Positions 12,167-52,987 of a stretch of 64,000 bases of DNA are shown here, one piece after another (the stretch's first letter is position 1; every line of letters starts with the position of its first letter). The position numbers and the translations under genes were made by a program. The stretch is from Streptomyces sp. NBC_01716 (lineage in GTDB: Bacteria; Actinomycetota; Actinomycetes; Streptomycetales; Streptomycetaceae). Where the stretch lies: NCBI RefSeq assembly GCF_036248275.1, contig NZ_CP109181.1, forward strand, positions 806,001 to 870,000, in the 5' to 3' direction. The notes under the pieces were generated by a model that did no database searches, was not told where the DNA came from, and was given only the letters and a program-made list of their open reading frames with translations.

Positions 12167-12691
12167 ATGGCCGATGTTTCGCACACCAGGGGAGCCAGCA
12201 GTGCTCACCCAGGTGCTTCAGACACCAGGGGAGACATAGGTGCTCACCCTGACGTACCAGAAATGCGGGCCAGGTACGCCCGTGTGCTCGGTGGGCGTGA
12301 TGTGGCGCTGCTGGACGGGCCGATATTTCTCGCCGGTCTGTTCATCGCCCTCTCACCGTTCATCCTTCACTTCACGACCAGCCAGCCGGGTCTCGTGATC
12401 CACAACGTGATCATGGGTATCGCCATCGCCGGCCTGGCACTCGTTTTCTCCGCCACACCGACCCGGACGTACGGCTTCAGCTGGGCTCTCGTCTTCTTGG
12501 GCGCCTGGATGGTCGCGGCACCATGGGTCGTCGGCTCCAGCCCGGACCGCGGTGTGTTCCTCAGCAACGTCATCCCAGGTGCGCTGACCGCCGTGCTTGG
12601 CCTGATCTGCGCGGGCGCGGCGCTGATGGCGGCTCGCAAGCGTACTCGGGTGGAACGGACGAGCCGGATGAATAAGCCGGTTCAGACATAA
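12167..12691 (+). CDS. SPW-repeat-type four-helix membrane protein
   Basis: 174 residues; the ATG at 12167 follows GAAGGAG by 9 nt, which settles the start. A hydrophilic N-terminal stretch (about 55 residues, with two related TRG..(S/G)AHPG..(D) segments) precedes four membrane helices arranged as two similar pairs. Each pair carries a degenerate SPW-like motif (ALSPFILHF in the first, MVAAPWVVG in the second). The family is of unknown function and is common in actinobacterial cytoplasmic membranes. It stands alone and ends before a bidirectional terminator. Confidence 0.8.
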   Translation: MADVSHTRGASSAHPGASDTRGDIGAHPDVPEMRARYARVLGGRDVALLDGPIFLAGLFIALSPFILHFTTSQPGLVIHNVIMGIAIAGLALVFSATPTRTYGFSWALVFLGAWMVAAPWVVGSSPDRGVFLSNVIPGALTAVLGLICAGAALMAARKRTRVERTSRMNKPVQT

Positions 12692-46089: not shown

Positions 46090-47226
46090 TCAGATTGAGT
46101 CCGCGACCTTACACAGCACCGCGGCACTCGCGGGAATATCGTGGCTGAGCCGTACCGCACGGTGCGGCAGTTCGGCGAGACGAGACACCACCTCGGCGCG
46201 CGCGCTTTCCCGGCCGCCGCCGTCGACGCCCCGAGCCAGTCCGAAGACGTCCGGGTACCGGTCCTCCGTGGCGCCCGACATGAAGTCACCCTCTCCAAGT
46301 GTGCGGGTGCCGTAGCTGACGTCCGGCGTGGAGTCGGCGTCGACTTGGGGGAAGAGGAGGCCCGCCGCCCGGCCGCCGGTGGACAGCGGCAAGTCGAAGA
46401 GATCGGGGAACTGATCCGGGAACACCTGAACCTTCCGCTCTTGCTTCACACCGTTCCACAGCGGTGCGTGTTCGCCGGCCAGTAGCGCCTCGGTCACAGA
46501 CTCGTGTTGAGTCGGATGGAAGCTTCCCCCAGCCTCCAAGTGCTCGCGCGCGGTGGCGTCCCAGCCCAGCGAGTGGAGCAGGCCGAGACCGACGGCGGCA
46601 GCAGACGGCCAGGGCACGACCTCGACGTCCCGCTCACCGGTCGGCCGGACCAACACCCGGTCGTTGGCGAGGAGCTGCCAGCCGTTCGATGCGAGGAGAA
46701 CAGCGGTGGTGGTCTTGCCGGCTCCCTTGCCGCCGAAGGTAAGGAGAGTCGCGCCGTCGTCCGGCCTCACGACCGCGGAGGAGTGGAGCACCGCCCAGCC
46801 GTCCCGCAGGAGCTGGCCACGAATTGATTCCCGCGCGAGGCGCGAGGCGGCGAGGGCGAGAGGTTGCACGTCCGCACCTGCGAGGACGAGCCGGCCGGCG
46901 GAAGGCGTGCTGCGGTACGCAACTTCCTCTTCCAGCGATGCCGCCATGATGTCGTCGCCGTCACGCGCGACAAGGAGCGAGTGCTTCGCGTAGGACACCT
47001 CCTCCGTGGGCCGGCCGTCGTGGACGAGGCTGGTGATTTCCTCGTAGGCGGCGAGCTTGACGTCCGCGATCACGGCATGGTCGGCGTCGGACACGGTGTC
47101 GGCGCCCACGTCCGTGGCGTTCCACCAGGAGCCGAAGTAGCGCTGGGCCCAGTCCGTGACCTCCGGTCGGTTGCTGAGCACGGTGACGGCCGCGGTAGCG
47201 GCTTCGAGCCGGGTGGCAGTGATCAT
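46090..47226 (-). CDS. HPr-kinase-like P-loop protein
   Basis: 378 residues. Walker A GGKGAGKTTTAVLLAS (about 204-219) then NDRVLVRPTG, where HPr kinases carry an acidic/Asn metal ligand. The N-terminal 190 residues (AQRYFGSWWNA, VSYAKHSLLVARDGDD) are not HprK-like by eye. Related kinase-like proteins occur in several peptide-modification clusters. Here it follows the LDH-like gene with 4-bp overlap at the end of a five-gene minus-strand unit; no HPr or PTS gene is nearby, so HPr is unlikely to be the target. Activity untested. Confidence 0.75.
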   Translation of the reverse strand: MITATRLEAATAAVTVLSNRPEVTDWAQRYFGSWWNATDVGADTVSDADHAVIADVKLAAYEEITSLVHDGRPTEEVSYAKHSLLVARDGDDIMAASLEEEVAYRSTPSAGRLVLAGADVQPLALAASRLARESIRGQLLRDGWAVLHSSAVVRPDDGATLLTFGGKGAGKTTTAVLLASNGWQLLANDRVLVRPTGERDVEVVPWPSAAAVGLGLLHSLGWDATAREHLEAGGSFHPTQHESVTEALLAGEHAPLWNGVKQERKVQVFPDQFPDLFDLPLSTGGRAAGLLFPQVDADSTPDVSYGTRTLGEGDFMSGATEDRYPDVFGLARGVDGGGRESARAEVVSRLAELPHRAVRLSHDIPASAAVLCKVADSI

Positions 47227-48128
47227 GAGGCGATCCTCTCGGTAGGAGCGGGGAGACGGGTATAGGCGTCGCGGAGACTGCCGGCCGCAGAGTCCAGACG
47301 CAGGCGTTCGGAACGGGTGAGCGGGGGCAGGCACGGGACGGCGTTGCCGCCGGTGAAGCGGAGTGGGATTCCGAGGTAGACGTCCCCGTACGGAACGGAC
47401 AGCTCTTCCACGCCGTCGGCCAGCCCCAGGACCTTGCTCAGCGTCGACAGCACCGCACCAGTCGGCCCGTAGCGGGTACGGTCCATGCCCTTACGGATCA
47501 GCGCCGGCCGCCGCTGGAGGTCCTCCACGACCGCGTGCACCGAGATGGCGACCGGGCGACCGGCGACGGTGCTGGTGGACGCGCACACCACCGCACTGTC
47601 ACCGTGCTCACCGATGACGTGCCCGCGAACGACGTCCGGGGACACCTGGGCGTACCGGGCCAGCAGCAGGCGGTACCGGGCGGAATCGAGATTCGACCCG
47701 ATTCCGAAGACCCGGGTGCAGCCCGACACTTCGGCGAAGCGGCGAGCCATCAGGTCCACGGGGTTCGTCACGACGAGGATCGTCCCGCCGTACCTGCGGA
47801 GCTCACGCGCGAGGGCGCCGAGGGCCGGCGCGTTCGCGGTGGCGCCACCGCGCCGGATGTCCTGCGTGACGGTGTTCTTGAAGTCGGTACGGAGGGTGAT
47901 CACTACCGCGTCGCAGCCGTGGAGGTCGACGGCCTCACCGGCCTCGACCAGCGTGCGTGAGCGGGTGGTGTGCGCGAGGTCCTGAAGGTCGGCAGTCAGG
48001 CCGTAAACCTGTGTGAACCGTCGGGACACAAGGAGAAGGCGTTCAGGTAAGGCGGCGGCAACGAGGCCGGCCGCGAGGGTCTGGCCGACGGCGCCCGTCC
48101 CGACGATCCCGACCACCGGGCCGCTCAC
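47223..48128 (-). CDS. Lactate/malate dehydrogenase superfamily protein with diverged substrate loop
   Basis: 301 residues. NAD-binding GTGAVGQTLAAGL, TNPVDLMA, substrate-binding Arg region GSNLDSARYR and catalytic His in GEHGDSAV are intact. The mobile substrate-specificity loop (about 82-100) is diverged: TLRTDFKNTVTQDIRRG replaces the usual GxxRxDL stretch. The protein is likely an active 2-hydroxyacid dehydrogenase of altered specificity. It sits between the kinase and the HprK-like gene with 4-bp overlaps on both sides, a setting unlike primary metabolism. Confidence 0.85.
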   Translation of the reverse strand: MSGPVVGIVGTGAVGQTLAAGLVAAALPERLLLVSRRFTQVYGLTADLQDLAHTTRSRTLVEAGEAVDLHGCDAVVITLRTDFKNTVTQDIRRGGATANAPALGALARELRRYGGTILVVTNPVDLMARRFAEVSGCTRVFGIGSNLDSARYRLLLARYAQVSPDVVRGHVIGEHGDSAVVCASTSTVAGRPVAISVHAVVEDLQRRPALIRKGMDRTRYGPTGAVLSTLSKVLGLADGVEELSVPYGDVYLGIPLRFTGGNAVPCLPPLTRSERLRLDSAAGSLRDAYTRLPAPTERIAS

Positions 48129-49330
48129 CGGACGCGCCCGGCGGTGTGCTCAACCTCAGAGAAGACAGCGTCCAGGAGCCGGGGACCGGACGTCGCCCCG
48201 AGGAGAAGGGCGCTCACCCTGTCCACGACGCCCGCCACCATGCGAGCCTGCGCCACGAGTGACCGCTGATGGGGTGCCAGGAGGAGGCCCTGGGGTGCAC
48301 TGAGGCATGTGCTCAGGATGTTCACCGTGTCCATGAGCCACAAGACCATGACCTCACGGAGCCGTCCCGCCCGCTCCCGCTCCGGCAGACCCGCGACGTG
48401 CCGGGCGAGGGTGGACGCTACCCCCTGAACGATCTGTTGCCCGGCATTCGGCTCCCGGTGCCCGACAGCGAGCAGAAGCGCCCGCCCGGTGAGCTTCGCG
48501 ATGTCCGGTTGAGGCCCGGCTGCCCGTTGCAGGGCCGGGTCGATGAAGGTGAGGCGGGCGCCCTCAATGCAGACGTGCTCCGGCTTCAGGTCCCCGAACA
48601 CCAACCTGCCTCGCTGGGATGAGATCGCATCCGCCATCCGGATCAGCCGCCACACTGCCGTCCCGACCAGATCTACGATCTCCTGGCGCTCATGGTCCCG
48701 CAGCGCTCTGCCCTGGCCGAGCGACCGCAGATAGGCCCTGCTGCTCATAACGTCGAACTTCCTGCGGAAGACCCCGACGACGGAACGTTCACCGATCGGC
48801 GCGGCTGCGCGCAGGCGGTCCGCGCCGACCCGACCGTGAAGATCGCTGAGGACCAGCAGAACCTCGTCGAGCAGAGCGCCCGTTTCCCACGGGCGGGCAG
48901 CCAGCTCGGCAATCAGAGGCGTCCCCGCCACCATGCGTGTAAGGAGGACCCCACGGTGCAGGCCGGCGGTCTCACACACGTGAGGCTCACCGAGCCTGCG
49001 AAGGAACTCCAGGTGCTGCGCCTCGCGCGCGGTCAGCAGATCGGCGCTCTGGACGTAGGCGCGTTGGGCGTCCTGGACCTCCGCCCACGTCCCTCCTGCG
49101 CCCCGCAGGAGGGACACCAACGACATACCTAACCAACTGTATTTGGCGATCAACTCCTCGCCGTCCACCGTGACCCGGCAGACGTACGACGTGACGCTCG
49201 GGCATCGAGGGCCGGGAACCACCTTCTTGTCCGGCCAGAGCTCCCTCACCGCCTGGGTAATGATCCGCTGGGACACGGTGTGCAGACTCATTGCGCTCAC
49301 CGTTGTGTTCTCGCTTGTCGTGAGTGTCAC
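48125..49330 (-). CDS. Aminoglycoside-phosphotransferase-like kinase
   Basis: 401 residues. Core protein-kinase-like fold: RLVFGDLKPEHV is the catalytic loop (Asp, with His where APH usually has Asn) and TFIDPAL is the metal-binding DFD equivalent. The N-lobe Lys is probably in ELIAKYSWLG. GTG 49330 is preceded by AAGGAGG at 6 nt, a strong site; an in-frame ATG at 49360 would overlap the small upstream gene by 4 bp and is the alternative. Substrate unknown; the cassette suggests a small metabolite or lipid. Confidence 0.75.
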   Translation of the reverse strand: MTLTTSENTTVSAMSLHTVSQRIITQAVRELWPDKKVVPGPRCPSVTSYVCRVTVDGEELIAKYSWLGMSLVSLLRGAGGTWAEVQDAQRAYVQSADLLTAREAQHLEFLRRLGEPHVCETAGLHRGVLLTRMVAGTPLIAELAARPWETGALLDEVLLVLSDLHGRVGADRLRAAAPIGERSVVGVFRRKFDVMSSRAYLRSLGQGRALRDHERQEIVDLVGTAVWRLIRMADAISSQRGRLVFGDLKPEHVCIEGARLTFIDPALQRAAGPQPDIAKLTGRALLLAVGHREPNAGQQIVQGVASTLARHVAGLPERERAGRLREVMVLWLMDTVNILSTCLSAPQGLLLAPHQRSLVAQARMVAGVVDRVSALLLGATSGPRLLDAVFSEVEHTAGRVR

Positions 49331-49356
49331 CGACCGCCTCCTTGTGGGTTCGCGCC

Positions 49357-49488
49357 TCATGGGTTGCAGATCGCGTACGCCAGCGATCCCAAGAGCGCGG
49401 CGAGGACCAAGACGTACATCACCTGTTCCGCCCGCCTACTCACCAGCTTCGGCTTGGTGCTCAAGACTTGGGGACGGGGGCATGCCAT
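49357..49488 (-). CDS. 43-residue single-helix membrane peptide in the kinase cassette
   Basis: ATG at 49488 overlaps the TGA of the upstream ATPase gene (TGATG), so translation is coupled; the stop meets the kinase frame. A basic N-terminal 20 residues (three Lys/Arg pairs, one Cys) is followed by a hydrophobic helix (VMYVLVLAALLGSLAYAI) and a Cys-Asn-Pro end. I recognise no family. Its position inside a coupled operon argues that it is real; it could anchor the kinase or be a peptide substrate. Confidence 0.55.
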   Translation of the reverse strand: MACPRPQVLSTKPKLVSRRAEQVMYVLVLAALLGSLAYAICNP

Positions 49489-50030
49489 CACTGCTGGCTC
49501 CGCATTTCTGCGCTGCCGTCATCGACGCAGAAGGCCCAGACGAGTTTGCCGATGCCTACGCGATCGCTGACTCCCCAGCGGCCACCGGTCAGCGCGTCGA
49601 CACGGGCAAGACCGCCCTCGCAGTCGGCTTCCGCTGACGGCTCGCGGCGCTGTGGTCTGGCTTCATGGGCGTCGTGCACCTCAATCCGCACACCGTTACT
49701 CAGAAGCTGGTAGCGCGTCTCGATCAGGCGTCCGGGGACATGACCGTGTCGCAGGCTGTTGGTCAGCAGTTCCGACAAAACCAGTTCGGCAGATACCGCG
49801 ATCTTGAGCTGGCCCCACGCCTTCAAATGCTGGAGAAGGAGACGGCGAGCCTTTCCCACCGAACGGGCGCTGTTCAGCCAGCGTTTCACCACCAGCGGAG
49901 GGCCTGGGGCAGGAGACGGATCCGTGTCGGCGGCAGGATGCCGCGCCGGCGGCCCCTCCTCGGCGGTCATCACATCTCCCCGCGAATTGCGGGCACTCCT
50001 GGGGTGCCCGAGCGGTTCGAATTTCATCAT
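49488..50030 (-). CDS. RsbW-like ATP-binding regulator 1
   Basis: About 180 residues. HATPase_c_2 fold with N-box LVLSELLTNSLRHGHV and a G-box-like GGLARVDALTGGRWGV. The starts ATG 50030 and 50027 both lie within GGAAGGAAAG range. Proteins of this type bind or phosphorylate anti-anti-sigma factors, or act with XRE regulators in actinomycetes. First of the tight five-gene unit. Confidence 0.85.
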   Translation of the reverse strand: MMKFEPLGHPRSARNSRGDVMTAEEGPPARHPAADTDPSPAPGPPLVVKRWLNSARSVGKARRLLLQHLKAWGQLKIAVSAELVLSELLTNSLRHGHVPGRLIETRYQLLSNGVRIEVHDAHEARPQRREPSAEADCEGGLARVDALTGGRWGVSDRVGIGKLVWAFCVDDGSAEMRSQQ

Positions 50031-50097
50031 CTTTCCTTCCATCGGAGCTTCGGGCCCGGTCAACCGGACGACCAGGCAGAGGAATTGGAGGCGGTGT

Positions 50098-50535
50098 TCA
50101 TCCAATGGGCGCCTCATCGGGAGCAGACAGCTCAGCCCACACGCGCTTCCCCCACGGCAGGGGATCCCAGCCCCACCTCTCCGACACCGCGTCGACAATG
50201 GTCAGACCACGTCCGGCCTCCTCGGTGGGGCCGGTCTCGCGGGGTGTCGGCTCGGCGCGGCAGGTGTCGATGACCGCGACGTGGATGGAGCGCTCGTCCT
50301 GCCTGGTGATGGCCACACGGATCGACTCGCCCTGTCCGTGGTGCACCGCGTTCGCCACGAGTTCCGAGACCACGAGCTTCGCGTCCTCGGCGAGCACGTC
50401 GAGGCGCCAGTTCCTCGACGCATGGTCCACCAGGAGTCGGGCCACTTGGGCAGCCTCGGTGATGCGAGGCAGTGTCTCGCCGAAGAACAGTGCCCCTTCG
50501 ACGGACACCCCGGCGAAATTGCGACGACGTGGCAT
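50098..50535 (-). CDS. RsbW-like ATP-binding regulator 2
   Basis: 145 residues from ATG 50535 (a weak ribosome-binding site; upstream starts exist but lack homology). N-box LVVSELVANAVHHGQG, G-box GRGLTIVDAVSERWG. It is more canonical than its neighbour. The two are not overlapping (67-bp gap), but adjacent on one strand, consistent with duplication and divergence or with heteromer formation. Confidence 0.85.
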   Translation of the reverse strand: MPRRRNFAGVSVEGALFFGETLPRITEAAQVARLLVDHASRNWRLDVLAEDAKLVVSELVANAVHHGQGESIRVAITRQDERSIHVAVIDTCRAEPTPRETGPTEEAGRGLTIVDAVSERWGWDPLPWGKRVWAELSAPDEAPIG

Positions 50536-50696
50536 GCAGGATGTCGGGTAAGTGGGCCTGGCTGTTGGGGTGTTCACGGCTTCCGTCGCCCTTACTGTCG
50601 GAGTCGAGTGGCGTGGTTTGGATGAGACCGGAGTTCGTTGTGCGACCTCTTTCGGCGCCTTCACGTCAACCTCGGCAGCAGGCAGAAGGAACCCTT

Positions 50697-50882
50697 CTAC
50701 AGCCAAGTCAGGTCGTGTACGGCGGCCAGCAACAACAACAGGCCGATAAATGCCAGGAAGCCGAAGCAACTCGGTATCGAAAGCGTGTGAAGACAGCCCC
50801 CGCCGATCTCCAGCGACGGACCAGGCGCCGGGGTGGCTGGCGCCCTGACGACCTGTGGAGGGGGAGACGGTTGGGCCTTCAC
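50697..50882 (-). CDS. 61-residue membrane peptide, unknown
   Basis: GTG at 50882 has GAGG 7 nt upstream. The N-terminal 35 residues are Pro-rich and polar with two Cys, and one hydrophobic helix (FLAFIGLLLLLAAV) follows near the C-terminus. Located 161 bp upstream of the second ATPase on the same strand and divergent from the XRE gene. No family recognised; could be a chance frame. Confidence 0.4.
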   Translation of the reverse strand: MKAQPSPPPQVVRAPATPAPGPSLEIGGGCLHTLSIPSCFGFLAFIGLLLLLAAVHDLTWL

Positions 50883-51110
50883 TGCCGCACCTCGGCAGCT
50901 CGTTTCTGTGCGCTCGGCATTGCTCTGAACTCCCAGGCGGGTCGATGGTCAACAGGTGCGTTGGTGCCCCGTGTACAAGCCAACTCCCGTGAAACCGCCT
51001 CTGCCGGACCTTCCGGCGGACATTCGGCCGGACTTTTCACAGCAAGCGGACTTTCCCTGCGCCGGGAAGTCGCTACCGTCAGAAGCATTCAGATCAACGG
51101 AGGTGACGGC
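50883..51110. promoter_or_regulatory. Divergent promoter region between the membrane peptide and the XRE/TPR regulator
   Basis: 228 bp with no gene of its own. ACGGAGGTGACGGC just before 51111 is the regulator's ribosome-binding site. Divergent layout fits control of the kinase cassette by the regulator. I see no clear operator. Confidence 0.4.
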
Positions 51111-52415
51111 GTGCCAAACCTGACGCCCTTCGAACACGCCTGTCGCCTGAGCGGCTGGGAACGACCGGCGGACTTTCTTCGGGACTTCCACGCCACGGCG
51201 GGGGTTCTCGGCGAGCCCATCACGCTGACCGACCGCCAGCTCCGCCGGTGGCGCCAGCCCGCACCACCCGCACCACGGGCGCGCGCCTGGCGAACGCTGC
51301 ACGCCATGTTCGGCTTCTGTCCGAGCGAGCTCGGGTTTCCTGGACCGCCGCCAGGTGCCACCGTGGGGGGCGCACCACCCACCGCACTGAAAGGCACAGA
51401 CATGGACCGGCGCGGTTTCCTCAACGATTCCATCGGCGCCGCAGTCGGCATGAGCCTCCCCGCACACCTGCGGCCGCTGAGCCCGGCCGGAGAGACGGGC
51501 GCCGTCGGCACCACCCATCTCCTCGAACTCCGGGCCGGCCTGCGGTCCCTCTTCCAACTCGATGACGCCTACGGCGGGGACGAGGTGCGGTCGCTGTCCG
51601 TACGGCATCTGCGCCGCGTCCGACGCATCATCAGCACCCGCCCCTGCTCGGATACGATCCGCCGTCAACTCCAGCTTCTTGCAGGGGAGTCGGCCGAGCA
51701 CTGCGGATGGTTGGCGTACGACGCGGACGACCAGGACGCCGCTCGCCACTACTGGGGGGAGGCGCTGACCACCGCGACCATGCTGAAGGACGTCAACCTG
51801 GAGATCATGATCTTCTCCACCATGAGTTTGCAGGCTTGCTACGAGGGCCGCGCACGCGACGGTCTCGACCTCGCCAGGGCCGCTCAGGAGCGCGCTTCCC
51901 GTCTCGGCTCGCCCACGCTCCGATCGCTCATCGCCTCTAGAGAGGCTCGTGCTCTGTCCCTTCTGGGGGACGGAAAGGGAGCCAGCCGAAAACTGTCCGA
52001 GGCGATGCGACTCGTGGACCAGGCAGACGCCGGGCGCCCGTCCCCGGAGTGGACCGCGTTCCACGGACACGCCGAGCTGAACTTCGCCCAGGGGCTGCTC
52101 TACGAGGAGGCCGGCCACCACCACTCCGCGACCCAGTTCCTCCGCGCTGCGCTCGTCCACCAGGACCGCACCTACGGCCGCAACAGGGCACTCTACCGGC
52201 TCACCCTGGCCCGCAACCTGGTCGAGGACGGCGAGGTCGACGAGGGCGCGGCGCAAGCCGTCGAGAGCCTTGAGCACCTGGAAGAGGTCGAGTCGGGCCG
52301 CGTCACGCGGAGACTCAACGAGGTGTCCGGCCTGCTTCGGCACCGCGATGCCGACAGCGCCCGCCAGGCCGTGGACAAGCTGACGGCGTACACCCAATCG
52401 AAGGTAGCGGCATGA
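51111..52415 (+). CDS. XRE-like regulator with TPR domain
   Basis: 434 residues. GTG 51111 follows GGAGG at 7 nt. N-terminal 80 residues resemble a Cro-type HTH (LTPFEHACRLSGW, LTDRQLRRWRQP), then a short twin-Arg-like patch MDRRGFLNDSIGAAVGM and a C-terminal alpha-helical TPR array (about 170-430). This build is common in actinomycetes, often annotated as a Tat-signal or XRE protein and sometimes as a peptide-sensing regulator. It overlaps the GNAT by 4 bp and faces the kinase cassette. Confidence 0.8.
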   Translation: MPNLTPFEHACRLSGWERPADFLRDFHATAGVLGEPITLTDRQLRRWRQPAPPAPRARAWRTLHAMFGFCPSELGFPGPPPGATVGGAPPTALKGTDMDRRGFLNDSIGAAVGMSLPAHLRPLSPAGETGAVGTTHLLELRAGLRSLFQLDDAYGGDEVRSLSVRHLRRVRRIISTRPCSDTIRRQLQLLAGESAEHCGWLAYDADDQDAARHYWGEALTTATMLKDVNLEIMIFSTMSLQACYEGRARDGLDLARAAQERASRLGSPTLRSLIASREARALSLLGDGKGASRKLSEAMRLVDQADAGRPSPEWTAFHGHAELNFAQGLLYEEAGHHHSATQFLRAALVHQDRTYGRNRALYRLTLARNLVEDGEVDEGAAQAVESLEHLEEVESGRVTRRLNEVSGLLRHRDADSARQAVDKLTAYTQSKVAA

Positions 52416-52987
52416 CACCCGCCGAGGTGCTGACCTACGACCTCTACGAGGGCAAGGAGGCCGCCGCCGCGCTGGATACCTTTCTTCCGACGTACGAAGA
52501 GGTGTACGCCGAACCTCCGTACAGCGAGGCCCCCAGCGATGTCGCCGAGTTCATCGAGCACTATCAGATCCATGTCCAGCGGGATCGCATGCGACTGATC
52601 ATCGCCCGCGACGGAGACGAAATCGTCGGCTTCACCTACGGCTATCTGCTGCCCGCCTACACGTCATGGTGGACCAACATCCAGGAAGAGCTCCCCGAGG
52701 ACTTCACCCGCGAAGACGGCAAACGCACCTGGGTCATCATCGAACTGGCGGTCCGTAGGCCGTGGCGTCGCCGCGGTGTCGCCGCCACGCTCCACGCCGC
52801 ACTCCTCGATGGCCTCCACGTCGAGCGGGTGACGCTCACCGTCCGACCGGAGCCCGAGGCGGCCCCGGCACAGTCCGCTTACAAGTCGTGGGGCTACCGC
52901 ACCGTCGGCGTATCGCATCCGTGGGAGGACGCGCCGTTCTACACAGCCATGGTGCTCGAACTCGACGGCGAGCCCGCCCAAAGCTGA
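52412..52987 (+). CDS. GNAT-family N-acetyltransferase
   Basis: 191 residues. RRPWRRRGVAATLHAALL is the acetyl-CoA loop; the fold ends YKSWGYRTVG. The ATG overlaps the stop of the XRE/TPR regulator, so they are coexpressed. Substrate unknown; it may serve the adjacent cassette. Confidence 0.85.
   Translation: MTPAEVLTYDLYEGKEAAAALDTFLPTYEEVYAEPPYSEAPSDVAEFIEHYQIHVQRDRMRLIIARDGDEIVGFTYGYLLPAYTSWWTNIQEELPEDFTREDGKRTWVIIELAVRRPWRRRGVAATLHAALLDGLHVERVTLTVRPEPEAAPAQSAYKSWGYRTVGVSHPWEDAPFYTAMVLELDGEPAQS

Follow-up and report, generated by a model that had tools for sequence, protein, structure and literature searches.

HPr kinase homologs such as the paeninodin kinase and ThcoK occur in lasso peptide clusters, where, according to one account (PMC8498205), they phosphorylate the C-terminal serine of the precursor peptide, a precedent for P-loop kinases of the HprK type in the context of peptide natural products. 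By description, a comparable kinase is encoded in the window, i.e., the whole 64,000-nucleotide stretch of Streptomyces sp. NBC_01716 analysed here (contig NZ_CP109181.1, positions 806,001 to 870,000, part of a single-contig genome of 8.67 Mb). Unlike in the lasso clusters, its partners are an aminoglycoside phosphotransferase-fold (APH-like) protein and a lactate dehydrogenase-like (LDH-like) protein, a comparison made with no profile search aimed at lasso enzymes. The HprK-related kinases A and B of the GAK system (TIGR04352 and TIGR04355) match all seven HprK-like proteins scanned at an E value of 1 or better, far below the cut-off (the window protein scores 19.6 and 22.7 bits against an equivalog score of 200 bits); of the GAK parts, the comparison covers these kinases only. 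Clusters for graspetides and FxLD lanthipeptides, both ribosomally synthesized and post-translationally modified peptides (RiPPs), contribute a ligase, a precursor, an isoaspartyl-type methyltransferase or LanB/LanC beside the three enzymes at some loci. The accessible parts of the graspetide and FxLD reports do not mention the enzyme set, and the nearest passage notes "phosphotransferases" among the graspetides of groups 29 and 37, possibly the same genes, possibly others (PMC13097080). No description of the three enzymes together was found in the open-access literature, in agreement with the earlier note on this DNA, made from the sequence alone, which knew of none.

The genomic distribution supports the view that the three enzymes form a co-inherited, horizontally moving set (the module) across Streptomyces chromosomes and plasmids. 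We propose, with a probability of roughly 0.4, that this module is a plug-in redox and phosphorylation tailoring unit for peptide natural products. The three-gene signature, with HprK in 116 GTDB stretches and 28 plasmid records, offers a genome-mining marker for uncharacterised peptide or metabolite clusters, and a concrete hypothesis of dehydrogenase-plus-kinase chemistry in RiPPs that can be put to the test. In the window, the module consists of:

46090..47226, minus strand: HprK-like P-loop kinase, 378 residues (motifs GxKGAGKTT, LANDR and EDRYPD; profile and selection)
47223..48128, minus strand: LDH/malate dehydrogenase-superfamily dehydrogenase, 301 residues (PF00056 and PF02866 above cut-off; alignments)
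48125..49330, minus strand: phosphotransferase of the APH/methylthioribose (MTR) kinase fold, about 401 residues (motifs GDLKPEH and IDP; AlphaFold and Foldseek; start from ribosome-binding site and ortholog)

Conservation and spread of the module

The HprK alignment, run against GTDB genomes, gave 116 relatives, and loci (L numbers) were counted for the best 80. Redundant pairs are included, e.g., L077 and L079 from one species; L010–L017 and the window lie outside the 80, L011 being the L021 locus (S. fuscigenes) and L015 the L090 locus (S. megasporus). APH-like and LDH-like genes were scored as present from plus-strand tblastn matches that cover at least 190 and at least 200 residues, respectively, the order was read from gene listings, and some genes counted as present look broken (L030, L038, L049, L058 and L079). 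At 61 of the 80 loci, beyond what chance would give, all three genes are found in the order APH-LDH-HprK with kept spacing, which bears out the conserved synteny that the earlier note had proposed to check. Ten loci are partial for APH and LDH (five with LDH traces only, three with LDH only, one with APH and a partial LDH, one with a partial APH and LDH), eight carry HprK without either partner, and one is at a contig edge. The same note had named separate occurrence in most genomes as an outcome that would weigh against a set; this is not so for the LDH-like and APH-like genes, and applies to HprK at the eight loci just mentioned. Three of the 80 loci carry a label other than Streptomyces (Actinacidiphila for L032 and L066, Sinosporangium for L093).

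Among 150 genomes of the genus (G numbers), the LDH search (E 1e-20) found eight, with nine places, the APH profile (E 1e-15) nine, and HprK 15, and all eight LDH genomes are in both other lists. The extra HprK genomes have partial matches (G060, G076, G079 and G089), a weak match (G149) or a divergent cluster (G025 and G147). A class-wide sample of 394 genomes gave HprK-profile matches at E 1e-6 in 21, of which the eight with E below 1e-150 all belong to the same genus. The HprK gene is further present on 28 plasmid records, all from Streptomyces, and at the six plasmid loci fetched, phosphotransferase-like, dehydrogenase and HprK genes lie side by side; two loci on viral contigs both have all three genes. 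On plasmid NZ_CP109456.1, the module is followed at a distance of about 2.6 kb by a gene annotated as coenzyme F420-0:L-glutamate ligase (L123:12714-13454), which may be coincidence; F420 contains a phospholactate unit.

At eight of the 80 loci, LDH and HprK are joined in one open frame of 632–679 residues, and since all of these group in a single clade of 11 rows in the HprK tree, the fusion was probably a single event. All three genes are under purifying selection, with a ratio of nonsynonymous to synonymous substitution rates (dN/dS) of 0.19–0.35 overall; for the window against near relatives, the values are 0.26–0.35 for APH, 0.21–0.26 for LDH and 0.19–0.22 for HprK. Broken copies, with APH split in L030, L038, L049 and L058 and HprK missing in L012, are as expected for an accessory gene set.

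Properties of the three enzymes

The family alignments, of 54, 38, 46 and 32 rows, are hand-picked subsets of the relatives. They and the structural searches make both kinase folds pointed out from the sequence recognisable, the first by a profile match to an HPr kinase and the second by its MTR kinase fold. A profile of 46 HprK relatives matches HPr kinase 1jb1 at E 4.8e-5, the similarity extending over about 68 positions that include the P-loop and the LxxDR/second-Asp region, and the window protein stays under the gathering score of PF07475 (14.8 vs 33.3 bits). Invariant in the HprK-like family are G165, K167, G170, K171, N188, D189, H237-T239 and E321-Y324. A model of the LDH-HprK fusion has a high local confidence (pLDDT 92.9) but a predicted template modelling score (pTM) of 0.65, and because of the latter the placement of its domains is left unused; the 50 Foldseek rows shown for this model are, where they carry a title, chains of lactate/malate dehydrogenases.

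The AlphaFold model of the APH-like protein has a pLDDT of 92, and its best PDB folds in Foldseek are MTR kinases (E 1.2e-8), with the RiPP protein TvaE also listed; 5-methylthioribose kinase and TvaE proteins share the fold at about 9–14% identity in those rows. Four of eight APH-like members match PF01636 at an E value of 1 or better (best 2.4e-9), and the window protein does not. K63, D247, K249 and D264 are invariant in 38 sequences. The kinase-fold proteins TvaE and RosX lack the kinase residues, according to PMC12291118, whereas the APH-like protein keeps the Lys and both Asp residues, and because K63, D247 and D264 are kept we read the family as a kinase. As a separate observation, genome G055, the one APH-profile genome outside the eight shared ones, has an APH-like gene with no LDH or HprK match beside it, adjoined by radical SAM, nucleoside-phosphorylase and PCMT genes (L140 with L147); the PCMT-type methyltransferase and the radical SAM gene are upstream of the kinase.

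The APH fold, together with the plasmid location, would suit a self-resistance or phage-defence cassette built around an antibiotic-phosphotransferase-like enzyme. We consider this very improbable, given the linkage to RiPP maturases, the ranking of MTR kinases as top folds, and the lack, at a threshold of E 0.01, of any PADLOC match for the three enzymes of the window. Two weak PADLOC matches (E 0.002 and 0.0035) concern the L063 kinase only, and a defence system was rejected as a candidate.

The LDH-like protein of the window is above the gathering score for both PF00056 (48.8 of 27 bits) and PF02866 (35.1 of 22.6 bits), and its PDB relatives are L-lactate and malate dehydrogenases, with which it has the fold, the NAD motif and the catalytic His, Asp and Arg in common. 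R92, N122, D148, R151 and H175 are kept, R92, D148, R151 and H175 being invariant in 32 sequences, and the catalytic set aligns to a malate dehydrogenase; we take these to be the catalytic Arg, the Asp-Arg pair and the His at 109, 168-171 and 195 in reference LDH numbering. The difference from the known enzymes lies in the substrate-specificity loop, which is altered and holds the invariant residues R80, F83 and N85; R207, R217 and R219 are further unusual invariant residues in the same 32 sequences. The equivalog cut-off of TIGR01771 (L-lactate dehydrogenase) is missed by a wide gap (116.9 vs 303.55 bits), and the protein is below the cut-off of every NCBIfam lactate/malate dehydrogenase model matched.

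Neighbouring genes and the possible substrate of the module

At 13 of the 80 loci, the 5 kb that follow HprK encode, in the same orientation, one or more of five RiPP enzyme clusters: ten loci have an isoaspartyl-type methyltransferase (cluster c8), eight have radical SAM/SPASM proteins, three an FxLD methyltransferase, two a graspetide ligase and two LanB. With L047, where a graspetide cassette lies upstream and is followed by HprK alone, maturases are beside the module at 14 of the 80. Beyond the 80, L016 adds an FxLD case, L017 a radical SAM case and L013 a different radical SAM gene. TIGR04188 is above its cut-off in L064 and below it in L017 and L033; TIGR04364 is above cut-off in L016 and L075, and TIGR04187 in L064 and L072. 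Precursors recognised beside HprK or the module are GRASP_targ (TIGR04186) in L047 and L064, and FxLD (TIGR04363) in L075. Against a Poisson background of 2.6 TIGR04188 genes per genome, estimated by eye among the matches listed, the chance of such adjacency is about 1e-21 for 11 matches and 7e-9 for five independent ones, values that indicate orders of magnitude only; the 11 exceed the ten downstream methyltransferase loci by L017, which is outside the 80. A single six-row HprK clade, well supported as a whole and less surely resolved in its inner forks, mixes graspetide (L064 and L072), FxLD (L016) and radical SAM (L073, L074 and L082) companions, so the peptide class appears to have been exchanged while the module stayed.

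Five more loci encode a family of 131–165 residues with a Cys/Ser-rich C-terminal tail, each time next to a methyltransferase gene, and this family has the look of an as yet undescribed precursor peptide. Members (e.g., L030:11228-11725 and L097:13585-14052) are present in 85 of 150 genus genomes, and the two members scanned have no Pfam or NCBIfam match.

The proposal of a tailoring unit builds on the conserved gene order, the fusion, the intact catalytic residues, selection, the RiPP adjacency in a minority of loci and a shared regulatory front end; from these we infer the order of steps, the substrate, the participation of the APH-like protein in the same route, and the remote peptide of the window copy. 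The LDH-like enzyme would interconvert a 2-oxo and a 2-hydroxy acyl group using NAD(P)H, and the HprK-like kinase would then phosphorylate the new hydroxyl or a neighbouring one, a handover suggested by the LDH-HprK fusion. A second phosphotransfer to the same product could be carried out by the APH-like kinase. The substrate would most likely be a RiPP or a group on it, with switching by an NsdA/HATPase front end and pairing with interchangeable RiPP maturation cassettes, and the orphan copy in the window would serve a peptide encoded elsewhere. A more specific form of this scheme, which we consider unlikely, has the LDH-fold enzyme reduce a 2-oxoacyl group, e.g., an N-terminal pyruvyl or oxobutyryl cap, and the HprK-fold enzyme, sometimes fused to it, phosphorylate the product, such that graspetides, lanthipeptides and radical SAM peptides alike would receive a phospho-hydroxyacyl cap under one exchangeable front end.

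Several observations weigh against a role in peptide tailoring. None of the five RiPP enzyme clusters is in the counted positions at 66 of the 80 loci, among them L034, with a radical SAM gene on the opposite strand, L085, with a weak opposite-strand methyltransferase match, and L026, with a weak match to radical SAM proteins. Next to the window copy, no RiPP maturase or precursor could be recognised, and the four TIGR04188 matches listed for the same genome (of 11) all lie outside the window. At the radical SAM loci, no recurrent precursor was seen between HprK and the methyltransferase, judged by eye from small open reading frames filtered for ribosome-binding sites at nine loci. HprK relatives are found beside small-molecule-type enzymes as well (L063, L141 and L142), and we know of no LDH-fold RiPP enzyme.

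The 66 loci and the small-molecule-type neighbours fit a stand-alone small-molecule pathway, in which the LDH-like enzyme would reduce a 2-oxo acid and the two kinases convert it to a phosphorylated 2-hydroxy acid, perhaps a signal, an antimetabolite or a cofactor precursor, the RiPP cassettes being other cargo of the same front end. In L063 (6724-11119), HprK adjoins, in an operon-like arrangement, an amino-acid-exporter/efflux-like protein, a 411-residue ThrRS-like protein and a GpsA-like (glycerol-3-phosphate-dehydrogenase-like) protein. The cluster of G025 and G147 (L141 and L142) combines an HprK of about 40% identity with a second gene that matches over the P-loop region and a third that weakly matches Hpr_kinase_C; an APH kinase and NAD-binding enzymes are encoded there as well, and no RiPP gene was recognised. 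The L169 front end, with 72% (NsdA) and 70% (GNAT) identity to that of the window, carries a radical SAM/P-loop kinase cassette instead, and the extra invariant arginines of the LDH-like protein (R80, R207, R217 and R219) would suit an anionic substrate. What such a pathway accounts for less well is the position of same-strand RiPP maturases directly downstream in several tree branches, beyond what a shared switch would predict, and the graspetide cassette followed by HprK alone in L047. Because of the 66 loci without RiPP clusters in the counted positions, the lack of a recognised one at the window and the small-molecule-type clusters, tailoring of peptides is given no higher probability than stated above, and a free metabolite as substrate is regarded as a close second, only slightly less favoured. 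Besides their HprK-type genes and APH kinase, L142:26-8550 and L141, from two genus genomes, contain a possible TIM-barrel enzyme (assigned by eye) and a 903-residue double NAD-binding protein.

The window island and its regulatory front end

Next to the three enzymes, the following genes are found in the window:

49357..49491 (ATG at 49488), minus strand: single-transmembrane peptide, 43–44 residues, family SxRxxQxxYxxxLxxLL
49488..50030, minus strand: HATPase (anti-sigma-type ATP-binding) protein 2, PF13581 27.0 bits vs cut-off 27.4
50098..50535 (start approximate), minus strand: HATPase (anti-sigma-type ATP-binding) protein 1, PF13581 42.4 bits
50697..50882, minus strand: second small membrane protein, core GCLxxLxxPSCFGFL...HDL
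51078..52415 (start approximate), plus strand: divergent NsdA-family regulator, NF053720 309.7 bits vs cut-off 75
52412..52987, plus strand: GNAT acetyltransferase coupled to the regulator, PF00583 36.7 bits vs cut-off 20.7

The order on the minus strand is small membrane protein, HATPase, HATPase, small membrane peptide, APH-like, LDH-like and HprK-like gene, and the NsdA-family regulator and GNAT gene are divergent from these on the plus strand. The earlier note had described five minus-strand genes at 46090-50030, all joined by overlapping starts and stops. All five open reading frames were found there, and three overlaps were read from the DNA: TGATG for ATPase/peptide, GTGA for APH/LDH and ATGA for LDH/HprK. 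For the APH-like gene, the best start is GTG at 49330, preceded by AAGGAGG and equal to the ortholog start in L010; the peptide and APH-like genes are thus probably 26 nucleotides apart and not overlapping.

The unit also reaches further than had been described. The GC content at third codon positions (GC3) is 0.82–0.85 in six called genes of 46090-52987, against a mean of 0.924 for the 42 called genes outside, the calls being made with a home-made codon-position scorer; one gene outside, at 12302-12691, has a GC3 as low. We take the entire stretch of about 7 kb, 46090-52987, to be one acquired island, which adds a HATPase, a small membrane protein, the NsdA regulator and the GNAT gene to the five. 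No tRNA was found in the window, and no empty insertion site was found among the six relatives that strongly match the genes on both flanks (a DeoR gene and a putative glycoside hydrolase gene, named by eye); the two are non-adjacent in all six. The small membrane protein at 50697-50882, with the core PSCFGFL, has a weaker relative in 96 of 101 genus genomes sampled, and may therefore have arisen by duplication of a nearly universal small protein.

Across the 80 loci, NsdA-type regulators are present anywhere in the stretch at 38, HATPase at 26, GNAT at 14 and another XRE family at ten. This is in line with a survey of ATP-grasp loci, which reports HATPase, HTH/DUF5753 and TPR-repeat families nearby, the first two mostly in an actinobacterial branch (PMC8939145). 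Relatives of the small peptide, recognised by eye from the SxRxxQxxYxxxLxxLL pattern, are found at a minority of module loci (the window, L012, L016, L019, L025, L030, L031, L055 and L172, the last being the L010 locus). Eight peptides of this type were collected near modules. A search at E 0.01 gave matches in 14 of 101 genomes; the top three come from module loci (G000, G090 and G023), and the fifth, in G092, is 1 kb upstream of the module. The fourth, in G078 (L169), belongs to a window-like front end (NsdA 72%, GNAT 70%, HATPase 50% and peptide 52% identical) followed by a radical SAM protein, a dTMP-kinase-like (P-loop kinase) protein and others, and the layout in G057 is similar. No module enzyme was detected by tblastn at E 1e-3 in the radical SAM (by eye)/P-loop-kinase cassettes of L169 and L170. 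At the plasmid locus L120, radical SAM and dTMP kinase genes come after the module. This suggests that one Streptomyces regulatory front end swaps its enzyme cargo.

Since the front end and the peptide precede other enzymes elsewhere, the small peptide appears to belong with the regulatory genes and is unlikely to be the substrate of the kinases. The suggestion that the kinases act on the 43-residue peptide was dropped as a main idea, the peptide being present at a minority of module loci and also before other cargo. A related explanation is protein-level signalling, in which host regulators or the small membrane peptide would be the targets of the kinases, and the dehydrogenase would act as a redox sensor. 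The adjoining NsdA-type, HATPase and membrane-peptide genes speak for it; the same regulators also accompany other cargo, and the LDH catalytic residues are strictly kept, which would be needless for a mere sensor, so that we regard signalling as improbable. Of the modification or signalling system envisaged in the earlier note, modification is the likeliest reading and signalling a low-ranked one; the observation behind that note is confirmed, and its interpretation partly supported.

The cargo at L169:903-8585 comprises radical SAM, dTMP-kinase-like, endonuclease-like and MazG-like genes, the last two assigned by eye. A Cys-rich protein of 51–61 residues (CWRCD...CEPC) recurs in these front ends, e.g., at L169:5155-5340 and L016:11838-12020, and was found by tblastn under 22 locus identifiers, some of which are overlapping fetches of one place.

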